A program made the position numbers and the translations under genes. Under the pieces are notes generated by a model. It made no database searches and had not been told where the DNA came from. It saw only the letters and a list, made by a program, of their open reading frames with translations. From positions 1-45,587 of the forward strand of contig JAFNIQ010000010.1 in the NCBI GenBank assembly GCA_017601395.1: a stretch of 45,587 nucleotides of DNA, read 5' to 3'. This DNA is from Candidatus Brockarchaeota archaeon (lineage in GTDB: Archaea; Thermoproteota; EX4484-205; JAAOZP01). Positions 33,288-43,364 of the stretch are shown here, piece by piece; positions within the stretch are counted from its first letter, which is position 1; every line of letters begins with the position of its first letter.

Positions 33288-33393
33288 CGCATGTTCATCG
33301 GATGTTCAACGTCTAACCCTCTAGATTCTTATGCCTGGATTAACGTGGAATTATAAACGGCAGTAATAGGCAGCAGGCTTCTCAAGTAAAATT

Positions 33394-33401
33394 TTTAAAT
33401 A
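33394..33401 (+). promoter_or_regulatory. TATA box of the lysC-aro-pheA operon
   Basis: TTTAAATA inside ATTTTTAAATACAG. Its centre is 23-24 nt before ATG 33421 and 135 nt before the lysC ATG. The start site should fall at or a few bases after 33421, slightly closer than in other promoters of this window. Confidence 0.6.
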
Positions 33402-33420
33402 CAGTGGGCTGTGGGGCCCT

Positions 33421-33510
33421 ATGCTCAAGTCTTTGAGGCCTGTCGGAGAGCCTCCTGAAGCCTCACGGGCTTCGGGAGAAGGCTTTTACCTCATGTTCCA
33501 CTATTATTAA
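33421..33510 (+). CDS. Candidate leader peptide rich in Phe/Tyr at its end
   Basis: 29 codons from ATG 33421 to TAA 33508-33510. It begins MLKSLRPVGEPPEASRAS and ends GEGFYLMFHYY, so five of the last eight residues are Phe or Tyr, directly before the stop. It lies between the TATA box and lysC, the first gene of an operon that makes aromatic amino acids and ends with pheA. If the transcript starts slightly downstream, TTG 33433 is an in-frame alternative start. The lysC ribosome site (GGAG, 33527-33530) is 17 nt after its stop. No homologue is known to me; the role is inferred from composition and place. Confidence 0.5.
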   Translation: MLKSLRPVGEPPEASRASGEGFYLMFHYY

Positions 33511-33514
33511 AAGC
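33435..33514 (+). promoter_or_regulatory. Alternative hairpins in the lysC leader
   Basis: Stem A pairs GAGGC (33435-33439) with GCCTC (33450-33454). Stem B is an 11-bp stem, CTCCTGAAGCC (33452-33462) with GGCTTCGGGAG (33468-33478), with one G-U pair and a 5-nt loop. It shares bases 33452-33454 with stem A, so the two exclude each other. TTTT follows at 33484-33487. Stem C pairs GCTTTTA (33482-33488) with TAAAAGC (33508-33514), enclosing the Phe/Tyr codons and the stop. Pairings were found by eye, without energy calculation. Confidence 0.5.
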
Positions 33515-33532
33515 TTAGGGGGTTTTGGAGAA

Positions 33533-34753
33533 ATGGGTTCCAACGAGGTTCTCGTTGTCAAGTTCGGGGGCGCGGCTCTATCAACCAGGGAGCGAGTTGA
33601 GCATGCTGCTGAACTGGTCGCCCAAGAGGTTAGGAGGGACAGCAAGGTTGTGGTCGTCGTCTCAGCCATGGGCTCGACCACTGATACTCTTCTCCAGCTT
33701 TTCAAGGATGCCGGCGACCCCAGGTTTATGGATGAGGTTCTATCGATGGGTGAGAGGACAAGCGCCAGGGTTTTCTCAACCATGCTCTTGGCAAAGGGCG
33801 TTAAGGCTACTTTCCTAGACCCGTCTCAAGACGACTGGCCCATCCTTACAGACAGCAATTATGGTAACGCTAGGATAACTGTTCAAGAGTCATGCAGGAG
33901 AATCAGACAAGTTGTAGGGGGCCTGCTGGAAGAGTTCGACGTGGTCGTGGTGCCTGGTTTCGTAGGCAAGGATCCTAGGGGTAATGTTACAACGCTCGGC
34001 AGAGGTGGGAGCGACTCAACTGCCTTCATACTGGCCTCAGCCCTAAACCCTAAGGACACTATTCTGGTTACAAGCGTCTCCGGAATAATGTCGGCTGATC
34101 CACGCCTAGTGAAGTCAGCCAGGAGGCTGGAGGAGCTTACAACCGAGGAGCTCGCAGCCTTGGCTGACGTCGGGGTTAAGTTCATACATAAATCGTCCCT
34201 GAAGTATATTCCGCCATCGCTGAAGGTCAGGGTGATAAGCTATGATTCTAAGAGTCTAAGAGGCGATGGCACGCTCATACTTGCCTCAACCCCGCCGTTA
34301 AGCATGGAGATTATTAACGGCAGTGTCTCAGCAGTAATGTTCGTCGGTAGGAGCCTCAGGGCTGTCGGCAGAGCCATGGATGTTCTGAGAAGCGTTGAAA
34401 CGGATGAGCCTAGGCTCCTCGGAGTTGTTTCAAACAACAAGGAGGTCCTAGCATACTTCTCCGGGAGGCTCGGCGAGGAGACTGTTCAAAGGATGCATGA
34501 CGAGTTTCTGCTCGGCGAGGATGCGGTCGGCCTCGCGGTGAGGCAGGGCCTGCGGGGAATAATCATAAGGGGGACAGACCTGCATGAGACCCCCGGCGTC
34601 CTATACAGGATCTCCGCGCCCATGGCTAAGGAGGGTATTAACATACACGGCATCTTGACGCTCGGCTCCTACTTCATAGTGCTTATTCCCGAGGAGCATG
34701 TTGAAAAGGCTTTTAGGCTTCTGGAGGAGGCTTTCAGGGTTGAGGAGGATTAG
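33533..34753 (+). CDS. lysC: Aspartate kinase
   Basis: 406 residues. Makes aspartyl phosphate. The catalytic motifs are intact: VVKFGGAALSTRERVEHA (residues 8-25), VVVVSAMGSTTDTLL, VPGFVGKD and TTLGRGGSDSTAFILASAL (about 153-171). The C-terminal ACT region is present (HETPGVLYRISAPMAKEGINIHGILTLGSYFIVLI), so feedback inhibition is likely. ATG 33533 has GGAG 2 nt upstream. It heads the aromatic operon and overlaps asd by 14 nt. Its product also serves the threonine branch. Confidence 0.95.
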   Translation: MGSNEVLVVKFGGAALSTRERVEHAAELVAQEVRRDSKVVVVVSAMGSTTDTLLQLFKDAGDPRFMDEVLSMGERTSARVFSTMLLAKGVKATFLDPSQDDWPILTDSNYGNARITVQESCRRIRQVVGGLLEEFDVVVVPGFVGKDPRGNVTTLGRGGSDSTAFILASALNPKDTILVTSVSGIMSADPRLVKSARRLEELTTEELAALADVGVKFIHKSSLKYIPPSLKVRVISYDSKSLRGDGTLILASTPPLSMEIINGSVSAVMFVGRSLRAVGRAMDVLRSVETDEPRLLGVVSNNKEVLAYFSGRLGEETVQRMHDEFLLGEDAVGLAVRQGLRGIIIRGTDLHETPGVLYRISAPMAKEGINIHGILTLGSYFIVLIPEEHVEKAFRLLEEAFRVEED

Positions 34754-35780
34754 CGTAGCCGTCCTCGGGGCCACAGGCCTAGTAGGCCAGAGGTTCGTGA
34801 AACTGCTCTCCAGCCATCCGTTCTTCGAAATAAAGGTTTTAACAGCTTCTGAGAGGTCTGCCGGGAAGAAGTATAAGGAGGCTGCGCACTGGCTTCTAGG
34901 AGGCGACCCGCCTGAGCCCGCTTCAGAAATGATTGTTCAGGAAACCAGGGTTGAGGCCTTAAGCGATGTTGAGCTTGTCTTTTCAAGCCTGCCTAGCGAA
35001 GCTGCTTTGAAAGTTGAGCCCATGCTTGCGGAGCAGGGTTTCAAAATCGTCTCCACCGCAAGCACCTTCCGAATGGATCCGCTCGTACCCATGATAATCC
35101 CGGAGGTTAACCCTGGCCACGTAAGCATGATAGAAAGGCAGCGTGAGGAGAAGCGTTGGAAAGGCTTTCTCGTCACTAAGTCGAACTGCACGACGATGCC
35201 TCTGGTAATATCGCTGAAACCCATTTTAGACGTGTTCGGCTTGAGAAGAGTTGTAACAGTCTCGCTGCAAGCCTTGAGCGGAGCAGGCTACCCGGGTGTC
35301 CAGTCGCTCGACATCGTTGACAACGTAATACCCTTCATAAAGGGTGAGGAGGAGAAGCTTCAGGCTGAGACTGTTAAGATACTCGGTGAACCATTTAGGC
35401 CGCTTAACATACCGGTTTTAGCGAGCGTGAACAGGGTTCCGACTCTAGACGGGCATCTGCTGCATGTCTTTGCTGAGCTCGAGAAGGATTTTGAGCCTGA
35501 GGAGGTTAAGAGGGTTTTAAGAGAGTTTAAACCTCTACCGCAGAGGATGGGCCTATACTCGGCGCCAGACCCAGTTATACAGGTTAGGGAGGAGGAGGAC
35601 AGGCCCCAGCCCAGGCTGGACAGGGATTACAAGGGTGGGATGGGGGTTGTCGTTGGGAGAGTTAGCAAGTGCAACTCTTTAACAGTTAAGTATGCTGTTC
35701 TCTCGCATAATACTGTGAGGGGTGCTGCAGGAGGCTCGATACTCGTGGCGGAGCTGCTTAGGGAGATGAGGCTTGTTTGA
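34740..35780 (+). CDS. asd: Aspartate-semialdehyde dehydrogenase
   Basis: 346 residues from TTG 34740. The fungal/archaeal class of the enzyme. NADP-binding VAVLGATGLVGQRFVKLL (about 6-23), VFSSLPSEAALKVEP, the catalytic Cys in KSNCTTMPL (about 147), SLQALSGAGYPGV (about 174-186) and SVNRVPTLDGHLLHVF (about 222) are seen. The track of in-frame codons extends 14 residues further upstream into lysC, but this start gives the usual N-terminus. Its product is the branch point to homoserine and to ADTH. Confidence 0.95.
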   Translation: MRRISVAVLGATGLVGQRFVKLLSSHPFFEIKVLTASERSAGKKYKEAAHWLLGGDPPEPASEMIVQETRVEALSDVELVFSSLPSEAALKVEPMLAEQGFKIVSTASTFRMDPLVPMIIPEVNPGHVSMIERQREEKRWKGFLVTKSNCTTMPLVISLKPILDVFGLRRVVTVSLQALSGAGYPGVQSLDIVDNVIPFIKGEEEKLQAETVKILGEPFRPLNIPVLASVNRVPTLDGHLLHVFAELEKDFEPEEVKRVLREFKPLPQRMGLYSAPDPVIQVREEEDRPQPRLDRDYKGGMGVVVGRVSKCNSLTVKYAVLSHNTVRGAAGGSILVAELLREMRLV

Positions 35781-36580
35781 GCATGCTGGATGTTCCGGAA
35801 CCGGGTAAAAGGAGGAGGCTTAGAAGGATTTTCAGGGAGGATGGGAGAAGCGTAATAGTGCCGATGGACCACGGTGTCTCAATAGGGCCGGTGAAGGGCT
35901 TGCAGAACATGGCGTGGCTTGTGGGCGAGCTGTCTAAGGGCGGTGTCGACGCGATAGTTGTCCACAAGGGTTGGGCGAGAATGGTTGACGCCGCCGGGCT
36001 CGGGCTCATTGTACACGGCTCAGCTGGGACGGACCTCGGCTCAGACAGGCTTAGGAAGACCCGTTGCGCAACCCCTCTTGAAGCGCTTTCACTGGGTGCA
36101 GACGGCTTCTCCATCCATGTTAACGTAGGCTCTGAAACAGACTTTGAACAACTAGCCTTCCTAGCAGAGTCCGCAAGGGTCTGCAGCATCCTGGGCATGC
36201 CTCTGCTGGCGATGATGTACCCTAGGGGTCCGAAGATCGCTGACGAGCATTCTCCAAAGGAGGTTGCTCACGTCGCGAGGATAGGCGTGGAGCTCGGTGC
36301 CGACGTCGTCAAGACGAACTACACCGGGTCGCCGGAGTCTTTCAGGATCGTCGTGGAGTCTACGCGCATACCCGTGGTTATAGCTGGCGGTCCTAAAACA
36401 TCTTCAACCAGAGAGTTTCTCAAAATGGTTAGCGATGCTGTTTCAGCCGGTGCCGCAGGCGTCTCAATAGGCAGGAATGTTTTTCAACACGATAATCCGA
36501 GGAGGATGGCTGAGGCTCTGAAGGCGATTGTCCACGAGAATGCTTCCGTCGAGTATGCGCTGGAGGTAGCTGAATCTTGA
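35777..36580 (+). CDS. aroA': 2-Amino-3,7-dideoxy-D-threo-hept-6-ulosonate (ADTH) synthase
   Basis: 267 residues. First enzyme of the archaeal early shikimate route (MJ0400 family, class I aldolase-like), which joins aspartate semialdehyde to a deoxyketohexose phosphate. RRIFREDGRSVIVPMDHGVSIGPVKGL (residues 16-42), GADGFSIHVNVGS, GADVVKTNYTGS (about 175-186, with the Schiff-base Lys) and IAGGPKTSSTREFLKMVSDAVSAGAAGVSIGRNVFQ are diagnostic. The TTG start overlaps asd by 4 nt. Confidence 0.93.
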   Translation: MSMLDVPEPGKRRRLRRIFREDGRSVIVPMDHGVSIGPVKGLQNMAWLVGELSKGGVDAIVVHKGWARMVDAAGLGLIVHGSAGTDLGSDRLRKTRCATPLEALSLGADGFSIHVNVGSETDFEQLAFLAESARVCSILGMPLLAMMYPRGPKIADEHSPKEVAHVARIGVELGADVVKTNYTGSPESFRIVVESTRIPVVIAGGPKTSSTREFLKMVSDAVSAGAAGVSIGRNVFQHDNPRRMAEALKAIVHENASVEYALEVAES

Positions 36581-37575
36581 AGGAAATATGGATTATCGCT
36601 GAGGGTGTTAACCAGGCTCACGGGGTGGACAGGGTTGTCTCGAGAAGCCGGGGAATGGTGGAGGGTAGGGGTGAAAGCCTTAGACTGGTGAAGTGGAGTC
36701 CCCCGGAGCCTCACGTGGACTTCGACCCCGGTTCAACAGTGCTCGAGCTCGAGGTTAAGAGCTCCGGGGACGAGGAGAATGCTTTGAAGGCTGTGGAAAA
36801 AGGCTTTAGGAAAATACTTGTGAAAACATCCGACTGGAAGGTTATACCGTGGGAGAACCTTGTCGCAAAGCTGAGGGGGAGGGCTATGATCATCGCTGAG
36901 GCTTCCAGCGTCGAGGAGGCTAAGCTCGCCCTCAGAGCTCTTGAGCTCGGCGTTGACGCTGTAGCTTTGAACATGCCTGTCAGCGAGGCTTCGAGAGCCG
37001 CGGTTGAGCTTAGGAGCATTGAAGCCGTGCTGAGCCTCCGTGAGGCCATTGTCGAAAAGGTTTCTGAGGCCGGCGTTGGGCTCAGGGCGTGCATAGATGC
37101 CTGCGACACTATGAGTCCTGGGGAAGGCATGCTGATAGGAGCATTCTCGTCGATGCTGGTTCTAGTGGAGGCGGAGGTGTCTGAATCCGGTTTCACTAAG
37201 CCCAGGCCCTTCCGGGTTAACGCTGGAGCAGTATGCCAGTATGTTCTCTCAACCAGGGGTTTTTCACCATATATTAGCGACCTTAGGTCTGGAGACGTTG
37301 TCCTGGCTGTTTCTAGAAAGGGCGAGGCTAGGCCTCTCACAATATGCAGAATGAAGGTTGAGAAGAGGCCTCTCAGAATGATCGGGATCAGTTTAAACGG
37401 TTCAACGGGGAAGGTTTTTCTGCAGGACGCTGAAACCATAAGGGTTGTAACCCAGCAGGGCTCAATAAGCGTTAGAGACCTTAAGCCGGGTGACAGGGTT
37501 ATCGCCTATTCTCCGGCAAGGGTTGGAAGGCATTTCGGAACCCCTGTGGAAGGGGAGCTGATGCTCGAGTTTTGA
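36577..37575 (+). CDS. aroB': 3-Dehydroquinate synthase II
   Basis: 332 residues. Archaeal enzyme that converts ADTH to 3-dehydroquinate with NAD (MJ1249 family), unrelated to bacterial AroB. Typical parts are VDAVALNMP, FRVNAGAVCQYVL (about 212-224), YISDLRSGDVVLAVSRKGEARPLTICRMKVEKRPL and the end RVVTQQGSISVRDLKPGDRVIAY, EGRHFG-like VGRHFGTPVEGELMLEF. It overlaps its neighbours by 4 nt on both sides. Confidence 0.93.
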   Translation: MKEIWIIAEGVNQAHGVDRVVSRSRGMVEGRGESLRLVKWSPPEPHVDFDPGSTVLELEVKSSGDEENALKAVEKGFRKILVKTSDWKVIPWENLVAKLRGRAMIIAEASSVEEAKLALRALELGVDAVALNMPVSEASRAAVELRSIEAVLSLREAIVEKVSEAGVGLRACIDACDTMSPGEGMLIGAFSSMLVLVEAEVSESGFTKPRPFRVNAGAVCQYVLSTRGFSPYISDLRSGDVVLAVSRKGEARPLTICRMKVEKRPLRMIGISLNGSTGKVFLQDAETIRVVTQQGSISVRDLKPGDRVIAYSPARVGRHFGTPVEGELMLEF

Positions 37576-38252
37576 GGCCTAGAATATGCGTTTCAGTGAA
37601 GGCGGATAGTGTTCCAAGGGTCTTAAGAGCTATAGGGCTTTCCAAGAGGCTTGGGGCCAGTCTTGTTGAGCTTAGGCTTGACCATGCCGGCGAGAAGCAG
37701 TATGAAGCCTTGTTGAAGACTGTTGAGTCGTCGCGCGTCGGCTGCGTGGCGACGATAAGGCCCAGCTGGGATGGTGGTGCTTACCTTGGGGACGAAGACA
37801 GGAGGCTGAGGCTTTTCGAAAAAGCATTGGAAGCCCCCTTCAGATACGTGGATGTTGAGCAGAAATCCAGGATTGTCGACGAGGTTTCAAGGCTGGCCTC
37901 TCAGAAGGGTGTTGGCCTGATTCTTTCACGCCATGAGTGGAACGGAACCCCCAGCGTGAAGACCCTTGGAAAAATTCTTTCAACAATGAAACGTAGGAAC
38001 GCGGATATCTATAAGATTGTCACAAGTATCAGGAGCCCTGTTGACGAGGCGAGCCTACTGTTCTTCCTGAGCAGCATCCGGGAAAGCAGGGTCGTCTGCT
38101 TCGGGATGGGGGAGAAGGGTTTAGCCACAAGAATACTCGCGCCGCTGCTCGGAAGCTTTATGACTTACGCTTCATACGGAGAGGCTCTTGCACCAGGCCA
38201 GGCGGACCTTAGGAGAATGGTCTCGATATACAGGAGAATGGGCGTATGGTAG
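37572..38252 (+). CDS. aroD: 3-Dehydroquinate dehydratase, type I
   Basis: 226 residues, Schiff-base TIM-barrel enzyme. ICVSVKADSVPRVLRAI at the start, LVELRLDH (about 34-41, with the conserved Glu and Arg), VATIRPSWDGG, the His of LSRHEWNGTPS (about 120) and the Schiff-base Lys of IYKIVTSI (about 144) are visible. The TTG start lies inside the end of aroB'. Confidence 0.93.
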   Translation: MRPRICVSVKADSVPRVLRAIGLSKRLGASLVELRLDHAGEKQYEALLKTVESSRVGCVATIRPSWDGGAYLGDEDRRLRLFEKALEAPFRYVDVEQKSRIVDEVSRLASQKGVGLILSRHEWNGTPSVKTLGKILSTMKRRNADIYKIVTSIRSPVDEASLLFFLSSIRESRVVCFGMGEKGLATRILAPLLGSFMTYASYGEALAPGQADLRRMVSIYRRMGVW

Positions 38253-39094
38253 GGTGGCTTCCAACATCAGATTCAAAACTGCTCTTCGTCATAGGAGACC
38301 CGGTTTCACACTCAGTGAGCCCGGCGATCCACAACAGGGCTATAAGGAGGCTTGGCATAGACGCTGTCTATCTTGCCTTAAGAGTAAAAGGGGAAATGCT
38401 CGGGTTCTTCATATCCCTTTGCAGGCTCAACAGAGTACTGGGTTTCAACGTAACTATACCGCATAAGATTGCTGTAGCAAGCCTTGTTGACAGGCTGGAT
38501 GATTCTGCTGAACTAACAGGGTGCGTCAACACCGTCAGGGTTACAAGCGGTCTTCTAGAGGGTTTCAACACGGATGTAGCCGGGGTTGAGAAGTCTTTGA
38601 GGAACGCTGGCTTCAAGGGCGGGGGTGTTGCGGCAGTCATAGGTGCCGGCGGAGGTGCTAGGGCAGCTGTCTTAGCGTTGCTTTCAATGGGGTGTAGAGT
38701 GGTGGTGTTGAACAGGAGCCGGGGGAGAGCGCTTGAGCTTGAGAAACACTTCTTGGAAAGAGGCCTGAGGGTTGAGACGCATGGCCTCGACCATGCTCGA
38801 CAGGTGCTTAAAGATGCTGACCTTGTTGTCAACGCTACGCCAGTAGGCATGGGAAGCAGCGTTGAAACTCCTTTTCCGGCCGAGTTCCTGAGGAGTGGTC
38901 AGACACTCCTAGACATGGTTTACACGCCTCATCCTACTAGGCTCGTCAAGGAGGCGTCTGAAAAAGGGTTGAACACCGTGCCGGGCGTCGAGATGCTTAT
39001 CCACCAGGCTGCTGAAAGCTTCGAAATATGGTTCGGCGTAAAGCCTCCGCTGGAGGAGATGAGGGATGAAGCCTTAAGGAGGCTCAGGGTTTGA
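38246..39094 (+). CDS. aroE: Shikimate dehydrogenase
   Basis: 282 residues. GDPVSHSVSPAIHNRAIRRL (about 17-36) and NVTIPHK (about 72-78, catalytic Lys) form the substrate site. TGCVNTV and GFNTDVAG follow, then the NADP motif VIGAGGGARAAVLAL (about 130-144) and NATPVGM (about 195). The ATG overlaps aroD by 7 nt. Confidence 0.95.
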   Translation: MVGWLPTSDSKLLFVIGDPVSHSVSPAIHNRAIRRLGIDAVYLALRVKGEMLGFFISLCRLNRVLGFNVTIPHKIAVASLVDRLDDSAELTGCVNTVRVTSGLLEGFNTDVAGVEKSLRNAGFKGGGVAAVIGAGGGARAAVLALLSMGCRVVVLNRSRGRALELEKHFLERGLRVETHGLDHARQVLKDADLVVNATPVGMGSSVETPFPAEFLRSGQTLLDMVYTPHPTRLVKEASEKGLNTVPGVEMLIHQAAESFEIWFGVKPPLEEMRDEALRRLRV

Positions 39095-39939
39095 GCAGGG
39101 CCATAGTTCACGGTGCCGTAAGCATTGTTAACGCTATGGCAAACGGCCTGGGTGCAGCACTAGGGGTTGGGCTGAGGGTTGAGGCGAGCTGCAGGCTAAT
39201 GGAAGAGCCAGTGTTCAGAATACGCTCCGGAGAAATTTTTCTCAAAGCCGGCAGCCTGCCTGAAAAGGTTTGCAGACTGATACTGGGGGACTTCGGCGTG
39301 CAGAAGGGATGTGAAGTGAGCATTTACTCTGAAATACCTGCGAGGAAAGGATTGAAGTCGAGCAGCGCCGTCTCCTCAGCTGTTGCCCTCGCATGCCTTA
39401 AAGAAGTCACGGGGGAAGCCGGGCTCATGGAGGCAGCTAAATACTCTGTTGAAGCGAGCATCGAGACAGGAGTGTCGGTGACAGGGGCTTTCGACGATGC
39501 TTCCGCATGCCTCTTAGGTGGAATAGTGGTGACGGATAATTTCGAGAGGAAGGTCCTGGCGAGAAGGCTGGTTGACCCCAGTCTTAGAGTCGTCATACTC
39601 ATACCTTCAGGCGGGATGCTCAGCGGGATGGTTGACACTAGTCTCTTTAAGCCTGTTGAACCCTTGATGAGGCTGGCCCACAGGCTGGCTTTAAACGGGG
39701 AGGAGTGGCTGGCGATGACTCTAAACGGGCTTGCTGTTTCAACAGCCCTCGGCCTGGGCGTGGAGCCAGCGTTAGAAGCTTTGAAGAACGGCGCCATAGC
39801 CTCAGGGGTTTCCGGAAAGGGGCCTGCTGTGGCTGCTGTAGTAAGGCCGCAGGATGTTGAAAAGGTTAGAAGGGCCCTTTCCGGGTTCGGCAGGGTTGTG
39901 GAGACAGGTGTGTGCAACGAGAATGCGAATGTCGAGTAG
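39091..39939 (+). CDS. aroK: Shikimate kinase, archaeal GHMP type
   Basis: 282 residues. GHMP-superfamily kinase that replaces the bacterial P-loop AroK in archaea. HGAVSIVNAMANGLGAALGV (about 7-26), the ATP loop EIPARKGLKSSSAVSSAVALAC (about 85-106), TGAFDDASACLLGG (about 132-145) and SGKGPAVAAV (about 232) are present. The position between aroE and aroA confirms the substrate. It overlaps aroE by 4 nt. Confidence 0.93.
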   Translation: MSRAIVHGAVSIVNAMANGLGAALGVGLRVEASCRLMEEPVFRIRSGEIFLKAGSLPEKVCRLILGDFGVQKGCEVSIYSEIPARKGLKSSSAVSSAVALACLKEVTGEAGLMEAAKYSVEASIETGVSVTGAFDDASACLLGGIVVTDNFERKVLARRLVDPSLRVVILIPSGGMLSGMVDTSLFKPVEPLMRLAHRLALNGEEWLAMTLNGLAVSTALGLGVEPALEALKNGAIASGVSGKGPAVAAVVRPQDVEKVRRALSGFGRVVETGVCNENANVE

Positions 39940-41206
39940 CGTGTTAAAGGTTAAAGGGGGCTGGGCTGGAAGCATCAGCTATGTGGCTCCGCCTTCGAAA
40001 TCCTATTCTCACAGGAGCCTCCTCATTTCAGCTGTTTCCAAAGGTGTTTCAAGGATAACCGGGCTCTCCAAGTGTGACGATGTGGAGGCAACCCTGAGGG
40101 CGCTAAGACTAATGGGTGTTCCTGTATCGACAAGGGGTGGCGAAGTGCTTGTTGAAGGCTGCGAGCTCCAGAGCCCGGGCGGAGAGGTTTACTGCGGCGG
40201 CTCAGCCTCAACGCTCAGAATGCTCGCCCCGGTTTTAGCCGCTAAGCCCTCCTATGCTGTTTACACTGGTGACGAGAGCCTTCGGAGGAGGCCTGTTAGA
40301 ATGCTTGAGGAAGCGTTCGCCACGCTCGGTGTTGAAGCAAGCTCTGCTAACGGGAAGCCTCCTTTAAAAGTTAGAAGCGGCGGCTTCAAGACTAATACTG
40401 TTATGCTGGATGCTTCAGAGTCCAGCCAGCATGTTTCAGGCTTCCTGGTCGCCGGGGCCAGGCTTGGAGAAGGGTTCAGGGTTGCTTTGAAAAACAGGGT
40501 GCTTGTCTCAAAGCCCTACGTGGAACTCACTCTAAGAATGCTCCGCATGCACGGTGTGGAAACCCGTGTGGAGGGGGAGTCTATAACGGTTGAGCCCGGG
40601 GAGCCTAAGCCTTTCAACCATACTGTTCCAGGCGACTATTCTCTTTCAGCAATCCCCTTAGCTATGGCAGCGGTCTCAGGCGGCAGCGTCAAGGTGCACG
40701 GGCTTGTCGACGAGCCTCAGCCGGATAGGGAGATTGTTGAAATACTCAGGCGGATGGGGCTTAAAATAGAGTGGTCGGGCAATACGCTTATAGCTGAGAA
40801 CACCGGGGTCCTGAAAGCATGTGTAATAGACTGTTCGGAGAACCCGGACCTGGTTCCAGCTCTGGCGCTCGCCGCTACGGCAGCGGAGGGTGAGACGATC
40901 CTGAGGAATGTTGGCAGGCTTGAGTCGAAGGAGTCGGCTAGGGCGACGCTCATCACAAAGGCTCTTTCAAAAATGGGTGTGGAAGCGTTTTTCAACGGCG
41001 ACGAGATTCTCATCAAGGGGCCTTGCAGGCTGAGGGGTGCAACCGTTGACGCCGGCGGCGACCATAGGATAGAGATGATGCTTATAATGGCTGGTGCTGC
41101 GGCTGAGGGTGAGACAACCATACTTAACGCGGGCTCAGTTTCAAAGTCTAACCCAGGGTTCTACAGCTGGGTTTTAGAGACTGGGGTTGAGCTCCAATGG
41201 GTTTGA
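39923..41206 (+). CDS. aroA: EPSP synthase (3-phosphoshikimate 1-carboxyvinyltransferase)
   Basis: 427 residues from ATG 39923; ATG 39929 is an equal candidate. Joins PEP to shikimate-3-phosphate. VAPPSKSYSHRSLLISAVSKG (about 22-42), YCGGSASTLRMLAPV (about 91-105, a variant of the GNAGTAxR loop), PGDYSLSAIPLAMAAVSGG (about 233-251) and AGGDHRIEMMLIMAG (about 374-388) match the family. An open frame continues into aroK without homology. It ends 10 nt inside aroC. Confidence 0.94.
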   Translation: MRMSSSVLKVKGGWAGSISYVAPPSKSYSHRSLLISAVSKGVSRITGLSKCDDVEATLRALRLMGVPVSTRGGEVLVEGCELQSPGGEVYCGGSASTLRMLAPVLAAKPSYAVYTGDESLRRRPVRMLEEAFATLGVEASSANGKPPLKVRSGGFKTNTVMLDASESSQHVSGFLVAGARLGEGFRVALKNRVLVSKPYVELTLRMLRMHGVETRVEGESITVEPGEPKPFNHTVPGDYSLSAIPLAMAAVSGGSVKVHGLVDEPQPDREIVEILRRMGLKIEWSGNTLIAENTGVLKACVIDCSENPDLVPALALAATAAEGETILRNVGRLESKESARATLITKALSKMGVEAFFNGDEILIKGPCRLRGATVDAGGDHRIEMMLIMAGAAAEGETTILNAGSVSKSNPGFYSWVLETGVELQWV

Positions 41207-42291
41207 ACACTCTAGGCAGGCTTATTGTCTTCAGCTTCTTCGGGGAGAGCCACGGCAGGCTGGTCGGCTCGCTAATACAGGGCTTCCCGGCCGGCTTAAG
41301 GGTTGACGAGGACAGGATTAGGCTCAGCCTCTCCCGCAGAAGGGTTGGATACGGCTCCACGGCGAGGGTTGAAGAGGATTCCTTCGAAATCCTAACCGGG
41401 GTTTTCAAAGGGTTCACCACGGGGGCTCCCCTGCTCATAGTTGTTTGGAACACTGATGCTGACCCAGGCTTCTACGAGAGGATCAGGAGCACTCCTAGGC
41501 CGAGCCACGTTGACTATCCTTACAGGGTTAGGTACGGCGGCTTCAACGATTACAGGGGAGGAGGATTCTCCTCAGGAAGGTTCACCGCCAGCTGGGTTGC
41601 GGCAGGCTCGCTAGCAGCACAGGTTCTCGAAAGAAAAGGTGTTAGAATATACGCGCACGTCACTAGGATAGGCAGAGCCAGTTACAGGGGTGAGCCGAGC
41701 GAGGATGATTTGAAGAGGGTTTACGAGTCCCCAGTCAGGTGCGTAGACCCGGATGCTTCAAGAATGATGATGAGGGAGATAGACGAGGCCTCGCGTGAAG
41801 GTGACAGCGTGGGCGGTGTTGTGGAGTGCAGGATATACGGTGTGCCCCCTGGCGTTGGAGACCCGCTTTTAGAGGGGCTTGACGTTGAGCTCGCTAGGGC
41901 AGCGATGTCTATCCCCGGCGTCAAAGGGGTGGAGTTCGGCAAGGGTTTCGAAGCCTCCTGCATGAGGGGAAGCTTGTTCAACGATGAGCTGACCGTTAGG
42001 GATGCGAGGGTTGAGGTCGCCGGGTTTAGCGACGGGGGTGTCGTCGGAGGTGTTTCAACGGGAAGCATGATAGTTTTCAGAGCAGCCTTTAAGCCGACCC
42101 CCTCGATAGCGAGGGTTCAACGCACGGTCAACCTTGATGAGATGAGGAGCGTTAACCTGGATCTCTCCGGGGGGAGGTTCGACATCTGCATCGCTCCCAG
42201 GGCTGTTCCAGTTGTCGAGGCTGTCTCAGCAATGGTTCTCGTCGACCATTACGCTAGGGCCGGCCTCGTCGAGAGAGTGGTTAAAGATTGA
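41197..42291 (+). CDS. aroC: Chorismate synthase
   Basis: 364 residues. FMN-dependent 1,4-elimination giving chorismate. FSFFGESHGRLVGSLIQGFPAG (about 11-32), RPSHVDYPYRVRYGGFNDYRGGGFSSGRFTASWVAAGSLA (about 101-140, signature region with FMN and phosphate ligands) and GGVSTGSMIVFRAAFKPTPSI (about 285-305) are all conserved. The ATG overlaps aroA by 10 nt, and the end overlaps pheA by 4 nt. Confidence 0.96.
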   Translation: MGLNTLGRLIVFSFFGESHGRLVGSLIQGFPAGLRVDEDRIRLSLSRRRVGYGSTARVEEDSFEILTGVFKGFTTGAPLLIVVWNTDADPGFYERIRSTPRPSHVDYPYRVRYGGFNDYRGGGFSSGRFTASWVAAGSLAAQVLERKGVRIYAHVTRIGRASYRGEPSEDDLKRVYESPVRCVDPDASRMMMREIDEASREGDSVGGVVECRIYGVPPGVGDPLLEGLDVELARAAMSIPGVKGVEFGKGFEASCMRGSLFNDELTVRDARVEVAGFSDGGVVGGVSTGSMIVFRAAFKPTPSIARVQRTVNLDEMRSVNLDLSGGRFDICIAPRAVPVVEAVSAMVLVDHYARAGLVERVVKD

Positions 42292-43364
42292 GTCTCAAGA
42301 AGCTGAGGAGGATGATGGACAGGGTTGACGAGAAGCTTGTCGAAGCCATCGCTGAGAGGATCAGGGTTGCGAGAATGATAGGCGGGGAGAAGAAGAGGCT
42401 TGGCCTACCCGTTGTCGATGAGAATAGGGAGAGAGAGGTTTACAAGCATGTTCTTGAAAAAGCTTCTGCAAGAGGCTTAGACCCTGTTCTGGTTGAAAAG
42501 GTTTTCAGCATCATAATAGACCACAGCAGGAGGGTCCAGGGGTGCTTCAAAGTAGCCTACCTGGGGCCGAGAGGCTCGTTCACAATGGAGGCTGCTGAGA
42601 AATACTTCTCCGGTAAGCCCTACGCTCTCCAGCCCTACCCCACGATCAGAAGCGTTTTTAAAAGCGTTGAGGAGGCTGAGGCTGACTACGGGGTTACGCC
42701 GGTTGAAAACAGCCTTGAGGGCCCTGTTTCCGAAACGCTTGACTGCCTAGCCTCCTCGAGCCTCAGCATAGTCGGCGAGGAGGTTTTGAAAATAGCTTTC
42801 CACCTTTCATCCAGGGAGAAGAGGCTTGAAGACGTTAGGATTGTTTTCTCCAACCCTCACGCCCTAGCACAGGTCAGGATGTTTCTAGACAGGGTTATGC
42901 CGGAAGCCAGGATAAGGGAGGTTTCAAGCACCTCTAAGGCTGCCTTGATGGCGGCTAAAACAAGGGGTGGAGCGGCGGTGTGCTCCGAGGCTGCTGCAAG
43001 AGAATACGGCTTGAGAATCCTAGCCAGGAATATTCAGGATGAGCGGGAGAACTACACTCGCTTCCTAGTCCTCTCTAGAGAAGCCTCGAAGAGGTTTAAG
43101 GGGGCTGCGAGAACAATGCTTATAATGATTCTGGAGCATAAGCCCGGCTCCCTCTACAGGGCTCTCGGAGTGTTTGCGAAGCATGGTTTAAACCTTACCA
43201 GAATAGAGTCTAGACCCGTCAGGGGTAAGCCCTGGGAGTACATGTTTCTAGTGGAGTTTGAGGGCGCCTCCTGGGACCATGGTGTGCGCAGAGCGCTGGA
43301 GAATCTTAAGCGTAGGGCTGTGGAGATTAGGCTGCTCGGCTCATACAGGCCTGCTGAACACTAG
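42288..43364 (+). CDS. pheA: Chorismate mutase / prephenate dehydratase (P-protein)
   Basis: 358 residues, bifunctional. An N-terminal AroQ helix domain (LKKLRRMMDRVDEKLVEAIAERIRVARMIG, about 3-32) is followed by prephenate dehydratase (KVAYLGPRGSFTMEAAEKYF, about 89-108; YGVTPVENSLEGPVSETLDCL; ENYTRFLVLS near 255) and a C-terminal ACT domain (HKPGSLYRALGVFAKHGLNLTRIESRP) that should sense Phe. It is the last gene of the operon. No tyrA or aminotransferase gene is seen after it. Confidence 0.95.
   Translation: MSLKKLRRMMDRVDEKLVEAIAERIRVARMIGGEKKRLGLPVVDENREREVYKHVLEKASARGLDPVLVEKVFSIIIDHSRRVQGCFKVAYLGPRGSFTMEAAEKYFSGKPYALQPYPTIRSVFKSVEEAEADYGVTPVENSLEGPVSETLDCLASSSLSIVGEEVLKIAFHLSSREKRLEDVRIVFSNPHALAQVRMFLDRVMPEARIREVSSTSKAALMAAKTRGGAAVCSEAAAREYGLRILARNIQDERENYTRFLVLSREASKRFKGAARTMLIMILEHKPGSLYRALGVFAKHGLNLTRIESRPVRGKPWEYMFLVEFEGASWDHGVRRALENLKRRAVEIRLLGSYRPAEH

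Follow-up and report, generated by a model that had tools for sequence, protein, structure and literature searches.

The window analysed here, a stretch of 45,587 nucleotides from a Candidatus Brockarchaeota archaeon (contig JAFNIQ010000010.1), carries an operon with the gene order lysC-asd-aroA'-aroB'-aroD-aroE-shikimate kinase-aroA-aroC-pheA (Table 1). We take its products to lead from aspartate to phenylalanine by the archaeal route, via aspartate semialdehyde and the enzymes encoded by aroA' and aroB'. The original prediction had described an operon that makes aromatic amino acids from aspartate and closes with pheA, and the Pfam assignments bear this out, with aroC recognized by eye. Pfam support extends to the LeuA-like gene and to the type I dehydroquinase, the shikimate dehydrogenase, the GHMP kinase and DHQ synthase II. 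Between the LeuA-like gene and lysC there is a short leader ORF whose product ends in GFYLMFHYY, so that the ORF claimed earlier for the interval between a TATA box and lysC is indeed present. It is presumably translated.

Table 1. Positions in the window of the leader, its promoter and RNA elements, and the operon genes
Feature	Position	Strand	Basis or conservation
Invariant 18-nt element ATTATAAACGGCAGTAAT, upstream of promoter	33350-33367	+	identical in 5/5 congeneric genomes
TATA box TTTTTAAAT	33392-33400	+	found in all five congeneric genomes
Leader ORF, 29 codons, MLKSLRPVGEPPEASRASGEGFYLMFHYY followed by stop	33421-33510	+	sequence reading; 28-29 codons in five species
Hairpin B in its extended form (pairing of 33446-33462 and 33468-33487; bulge at 33479-33481)	33446-33487	+	alignment of five species
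Anti-Shine-Dalgarno segment AGCCUCCU, 5' arm/base of hairpin B	33449-33456	+	complementary to lysC Shine-Dalgarno region, five species
Control-codon cluster F22 Y23 L24 M25 F26 H27 Y28 Y29	33484-33507	+	
lysC Shine-Dalgarno region AGGGGGTT (AGGAGGTT in three relatives)	33517-33524	+	
lysC (aspartokinase), operon gene 1	33533-34753	+	Pfam AA_kinase, ACT_7
asd (aspartate-semialdehyde dehydrogenase)	34698-35780; real start probably ~34746	+	Pfam Semialdhyde_dh, Semialdhyde_dhC
aroA' (DeoC/LacD-family ADH synthase) and aroB' (3-dehydroquinate synthase II)	35777-37575	+	Pfam DeoC, DHQS
aroD, aroE, GHMP-type shikimate kinase, aroA (EPSP synthase), aroC	37572-42291	+	Pfam for the first four
aroC (chorismate synthase)	41197-42291	+	assigned by eye from sequence
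pheA (chorismate mutase-prephenate dehydratase with ACT domain)	42288-43364	+	Pfam CM_2, PDT, ACT

In each of the five congeneric genomes that carry the leader, 24–25 nt separate the centre of the TATA box from the downstream leader ATG. Based on known archaeal promoter geometry, transcription likely starts at or next to this ATG, and a leaderless mRNA would therefore be expected. The distance had been listed as a weak point for being a little short; measured from the centre of the box, it is the spacing of a leaderless transcript, and the objection falls away. Upstream of the promoter, the 17-nt core of the invariant element occurs as a single copy per genome, at this site only. The element is probably either an operator for some regulator or a second promoter or TATA box, so the operon may be under two layers of control. 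In shuffles of the 140 nt upstream that preserved dinucleotides, an ORF of 20–40 codons with at least 5 aromatics per 10 codons arose in 0.7% of cases.

This lysC is found in five of the eight genomes of the genus, and the leader is kept in all five. The congeneric leaders have 28–29 codons, their frame stays open, and they end in FYLMFHYY, FYQMFHYC, FYSMFHYY, FSSMFQYY and FFWTYY, the last belonging to the most diverged congener (L034; 76% LysC identity). When the upstream regions of lysC were aligned, as had been proposed, the ORF with its aromatic end proved to be retained and the distance from TATA box to ATG constant, while the intervening sequence had drifted. The order of the amino acids varies between the leaders and the aromatic content is retained, a pattern that fits control codons better than a functional peptide. 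The earlier reading had been exposed to contradiction by orthologous operons devoid of an aromatic-ending ORF; on this point the result is in its favour, with the leader in five of five congeners and in at least 11 families.

The lysC loci of 299 genomes, all from the phylum Thermoproteota, were surveyed for short ORFs within 200 nt upstream, which were scored by aromatic residues per 10 codons and taken as positive at 5 or above; family-level groups bear labels internal to the analysis (f1–f52). An aromatic-rich short ORF precedes 40 of the 55 lysC loci with aroA' downstream and one of the 16 without it, the surveyed loci sharing ancestry so that the counts are not independent events. The frequency was 1/55 in the antisense-strand control and 0/127 before other operon genes, and the threshold score was reached in 5.2% of shuffles of the upstream regions surveyed. 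Examples from aroA'-linked loci are MHDAENKTAGNKSQFLSFDYYFYYYYFT, MELTKNACIVFFFSFWSYYYFALA, MTMASEGSRKKVFGFFYGFYFYFYFGP and MFNTENLRPSFGKTFDTYSFSYFFYYSF, each followed by a stop codon. The sole positive locus without aroA' (L061) has aroA' elsewhere in its genome, the low-scoring L075 has an aromatic-rich frame without an ATG, GTG or TTG start, and the L048 leader was hidden at first listing by a longer overlapping frame. Clear leaders occur in at least 11 family-level groups (f1, f4, f5, f11, f12, f17, f20, f23, f26, f30 and f48). Leaders are weak in f18 and f39, and no clear leader of this type was seen in f16 or f31, nor at the aroA'-first loci examined in f7. Where the operon has no lysC, the leader can still come first: it stands before asd-aroA' in f30 and f48 (L172, L173, L188) and before an aroA'-first operon in f12/g76 (L177, L178), where it reads LWSYWYFGFYYFALA up to the stop and has its end in common with the lysC-linked leaders of f12/g41. 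Judged by these positions, the leader tracks the pathway and not lysC. No convincing histidine leader was found before hisG at 29 loci, and Trp-rich leaders before trpE formed no general pattern at 17 loci.

Over the last 14 codons of 48 leaders, Phe, Tyr and Trp together make up 50% of residues in frame versus 8% and 9% when the two remaining frames are read. Relative to LysC, the enrichment in this stretch is 18-fold for Tyr, 9.6-fold for Phe and 4.7-fold for Trp, and Val, Ile, Lys and Leu are depleted. The GC content of the stretch ranges from 21 to 60%, and TTC and TAC are used as well as TTT and TAT.

Two mutually exclusive hairpins, A and B, and a third stem enclosing the Phe/Tyr codons had been proposed for the leader RNA of the window. 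Hairpin B is retained, is longer than was claimed and shows compensatory changes: 92.9% of cells are paired and three pairs are changed on both sides, with a covariation score that was equalled by shuffle controls in 83 of 500 cases for these only five, closely related sequences. Its 3' arm contains the first Phe codon (Phe22) and the first base of the Tyr23 codon; at this site, L034 has a stem of 9 bp whose register is shifted. Hairpin A (68% of cells paired) and the third stem (71%) are both lost in the more diverged species and were rejected as conserved elements. A better-conserved competitor of hairpin B is the 8-bp pairing AGCCUCCU:AGGGGGUU between the anti-Shine-Dalgarno (anti-SD) segment and the lysC SD, in which 97.5% of cells are paired, with 8/8 pairs in four species and 7/8 in L034. 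Hairpin B and this pairing share positions 33449–33456 and both are conserved, the switching between them being a matter of modelling only. Because the anti-SD:SD pairing shows zero covariation beyond column conservation in the five species, and because the SD is conserved for its own sake, the complementarity is only suggestive of a switch element. Whole-leader folds are moderately more stable than those of shuffles (z -0.8 to -2.7). Leader stop and lysC ATG are 22 nt apart, and the SD lies between them. Within the window, no hairpin was found between leader stop and lysC, where there is just a U4 inside the SD region (U5 in L034 and L035), and a transcription terminator was rejected for want of a suitable hairpin or U-tract. 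Also rejected was a frameshift from the leader into lysC, which has an ATG and SD of its own; upstream of lysC, its frame stays open in the window and in the 98% relative of the window, and in none of the others.

The original prediction held that a ribosome waiting at the Phe/Tyr codons could change which hairpin forms or expose the lysC ribosome site. The results support a leader of the attenuation type, but in simple folding models of the five Brockarchaeota a single stalled ribosome did not uniformly open the lysC ribosome-binding site (RBS). In the window, a ribosome at Phe22 would free the anti-SD, which speaks against the proposed direction of the switch. Only a queue of ribosomes that covers this segment makes the RBS easier to open in all five, the modelled cost being 5.4 instead of 9.5 kcal/mol on average; since masking leader sequence takes away pairing partners in general, this is weak evidence, compatible with a switch. 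In f17, the aromatic codons adjoin the leader stop, so that a ribosome there would cover the segment that masks the SD, and at the best stall position the modelled opening cost is 7.9 kcal/mol instead of 17.5, the direction expected of a switch.

The RNA elements around the leader take different forms in other families. In f5, the box GGUUCGAAGC just 5' of the leader ATG is base-paired with the S-F-[ED] codons at the start of the aromatic run, and past the leader stop there is a GCCCAGAAC/GUUCUGGGC hairpin; in these two helices 97% of cells pair, with changes on both sides, and their covariation score was equalled by 4 of 500 control shuffles. The f12/g41 leaders have the same topology in a different sequence (GCUCCAGA:UCUGGAGC), with a z of -2.7 to -5.6 for the duplex between 5' end and codons. 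In f17 and f12/g12, a segment at or just past the leader stop has complementarity to the leader 5' end as well as to the lysC SD, the layout that would be expected for an SD switch; the z of the f17 duplex between leader end and SD is -2.0 to -4.0. A strong hairpin after the leader stop and then U5 were found in f20 (L011, L016) and f26 (L048–L052). U-runs of 4–6 lie past the leader stop at many f5 loci, and at several f5 and g41 loci no run of U reaches 4. The output would be direct sequestration of the SD right past the leader stop in f17, f12/g12, f11 and f23, and the hairpin with U5 in f20 and f26; the sensor appears common to the families and the RNA output to differ. As a separate observation, f12/g12 loci L019, L021, L023, L024, L066 and L069 open their leaders with GTG, and between leader end and lysC SD they share a conserved fold of very high stability (consensus -51 kcal/mol over the stretch aligned). 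Their aromatic codons lie at least 5 codons ahead of the stop, so the stall geometry is unlike that of f17.

Taken together, we consider it probable that the leader is a codon-based sensor of aromatic amino acid starvation, i.e., a leader-peptide attenuator that acts by ribosome-mediated attenuation. The sensor part is well supported, whereas we infer the switch as well as its direction and output. A translational output is the most likely one for the window, because no terminator-like element precedes lysC. According to this proposal, ribosomes would enter the short ORF at the 5' end of a leaderless mRNA and read up to its closing cluster of Phe and Tyr (in some leaders also Trp) codons. When charged Phe-, Tyr- or Trp-tRNA is scarce, ribosomes would slow at the cluster, and their position would set whether hairpin B forms. 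It would also set which of three states the anti-SD takes: bound within hairpin B, hidden under trailing ribosomes, or available for pairing with the lysC SD. Starvation would lead to more translation of lysC and the operon; with amino acids plentiful, ribosomes would leave and the leader RNA would mask the lysC start site.

An alternative with the same codon sensor places the output in termination of transcription before lysC, at a U-tract or by an FttA-type process, when no ribosome is near the leader end. Archaea are known to show polarity and to terminate untranslated RNA through FttA, according to work cited in PMC12548453, and the hairpins with U5 of f20 and f26 and the U-runs of many f5 loci would suit such an output. 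In the window, however, the only candidate is the U4 inside the lysC SD region, with no hairpin ahead of it, and the f5 and g41 loci devoid of a U-run speak against it as well. We regard termination as a doubtful alternative, and equally doubtful its release by a stalled ribosome or an antiterminator fold. The classical transcription attenuator class (trp, phe, his) was rejected for the window, a hairpin with U-tract being present only in f20 and f26.

Should the nascent leader itself stall the ribosome on free aromatic amino acids, as a TnaC-like arrest peptide and not by codon sensing, conserved peptide ends would be expected. The end [F]xxMF[HQ]Y[YC] is indeed conserved in the four closest species and SF[ED]YxFYY in f5, but the f5 motif is at least partly explained by RNA helix 1:2, L034 departs from the pattern of its relatives, and across families order and N-terminus vary and only the aromatic content is common. 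The leader was therefore not assigned to the TnaC class, and this mechanism is improbable. Plain translational coupling, in which the leader would supply ribosomes to lysC by termination-reinitiation with no sensing, would agree with the short distance between leader stop and lysC ATG in the window and the SD between them. In most other lineages, however, the gap from stop to start is 36–63 nt, over the coupling limit of 30 nt in Haloferax (PMC12548453), and the 10–18x enrichment in Phe and Tyr codons would be left unexplained; we judge coupling a shade less probable still. The least credible alternative, which we hardly entertain, is a compositional artefact, in which AT-rich upstream DNA would yield Phe and Tyr codons by chance and the ORF would be untranslated. 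A score of at least 3 is indeed reached in 47% of shuffled upstream regions, but the enrichment occurs only in the frame opened by ATG or GTG, persists up to 60% GC with TTC and TAC included, and is rare at control sites.

Leader-peptide attenuation is a textbook bacterial mechanism, in which pheL is marked by a run of Phe codons, trpL by Trp codons and hisL by His codons, whereas archaeal amino acid operons are usually credited to DNA-binding regulators. Among archaea, the leader described here seems to be the first good candidate for attenuation of the kind found in E. coli and other bacteria. It lies between promoter and first gene, has a cluster of end-product codons and is linked to the matching operon in relatives; like pheL-pheA, trpL and hisL of E. 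coli and other Enterobacteria, it is a short ORF with end-product codons and matching pathway genes behind it, and with candidate alternative leader RNA folds near the codons. Unlike them, it is archaeal and probably leaderless, and Phe, Tyr and sometimes Trp would be sensed together before the whole aspartate-to-aromatics (DKFP) pathway. The window leader also differs in having no hairpin-U terminator and in having its control codons within the conserved stem's 3' arm and past it, and several archaeal lineages show SD-competition folds not shared with the enterobacterial systems. Translational attenuation of erm and cat is alike in its upstream leader ORF, in leader RNA complementary to the downstream SD, and in a stalled ribosome proposed to change the fold; the trigger there is an antibiotic, whereas here it would be uncharged tRNA, and unmasking by a single stalled ribosome is not supported by the models for the window. 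The conserved complementarity between leader and SD that marks a translational attenuator was found here, without covariation. The comparative-genomic signature is the same as that of the actinobacterial and proteobacterial amino acid attenuators, which combine a codon-rich leader ORF with RNA alternatives (PMC1262725).

The Rfam leader families (Phe, Trp, His, Leu, Thr) and riboswitches gave nothing above gathering score in the window, where the one match was at chance level (S4-Fusobacteriales, E value 0.36), and no Rfam match above gathering score was obtained at 13 relative loci. No case of archaeal leader-peptide attenuation was found in the full-text papers searched, which include few subscription titles; both searches are in line with the original remark that no proven archaeal case was known. 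We lean towards the view that ribosome-mediated attenuation is general in Archaea (Thermoproteota), ancient or repeatedly evolved, with leader ORFs, some of them on leaderless mRNAs, that sense the charging of aromatic tRNAs. With a similar inclination, we would place its output mainly in competing folds at the SD of the first gene and, in some lineages, see the leader replaced by a +1 frameshift at a hungry aromatic codon. If the attenuator reading is right, archaea sense amino acid supply through translation of short ORFs on transcripts that seem to start at or near the leader AUG, and archaeal transcription-translation coupling would become directly testable. The combination of TATA box, short leader ORF, codon cluster and SD-competing fold offers a search signature for other archaeal operons. 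The families would also form a natural series for attenuator evolution, because the outputs differ among them and the sensor stays.

Putative frameshift sites at aromatic codons were noted in three families. In f14 and f52 (L091, L101, L102, L104, L105, L191, L193, L196), a short ORF that starts past a TATA box (MGDLVWHAART, MRDIIWHYWFNR and others, each closed by a stop codon) is followed by trpE in the +1 frame. The conserved TrpE N-terminus is entered in the +1 frame at (G/A)TT-T-GG(C/A), the shift site being a Trp codon, and trpE often has no usable start codon of its own. L192, L194 and L195 have GTT-TGG-A, read by eye from the sequence and not matched by script; L103 has a plain in-frame trpE start and L106 has CTT-TAG-C. 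Expression of trpE in f14 and f52 thus appears to need a programmed +1 frameshift at the Trp codon, and the arrangement looks like a tryptophan-starvation frameshift switch. In f31, known from two genomes (L072, L073), the lysC of lysC-asd-aroA' has no in-frame start until 222 nt into the gene and is overlapped in the zero frame by a 10-codon TTG ORF with its own SD (LRGDCVYNCQ or LRGGCVYSCQ, then a stop). Ribosomes would enter lysC by shifting into the +1 frame at the Tyr codon of GUU-UAU; f31 is without the leader, yet carries this putative Tyr-codon frameshift at an aro-linked lysC. The cases in f31, f14 and f52 suggest that aromatic codons heading such operons have more than one mode of use as sensors. 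Among the Brockarchaeota, a trpE match (PF04715) is absent in G000, G003 and G005, which may reflect incomplete assembly or Trp auxotrophy, and present in G004 and G007. One in-frame TGA, perhaps through recoding, a frameshift or an assembly error, interrupts the aroA' matches of both G073 and G169 (family f17, genus g46).
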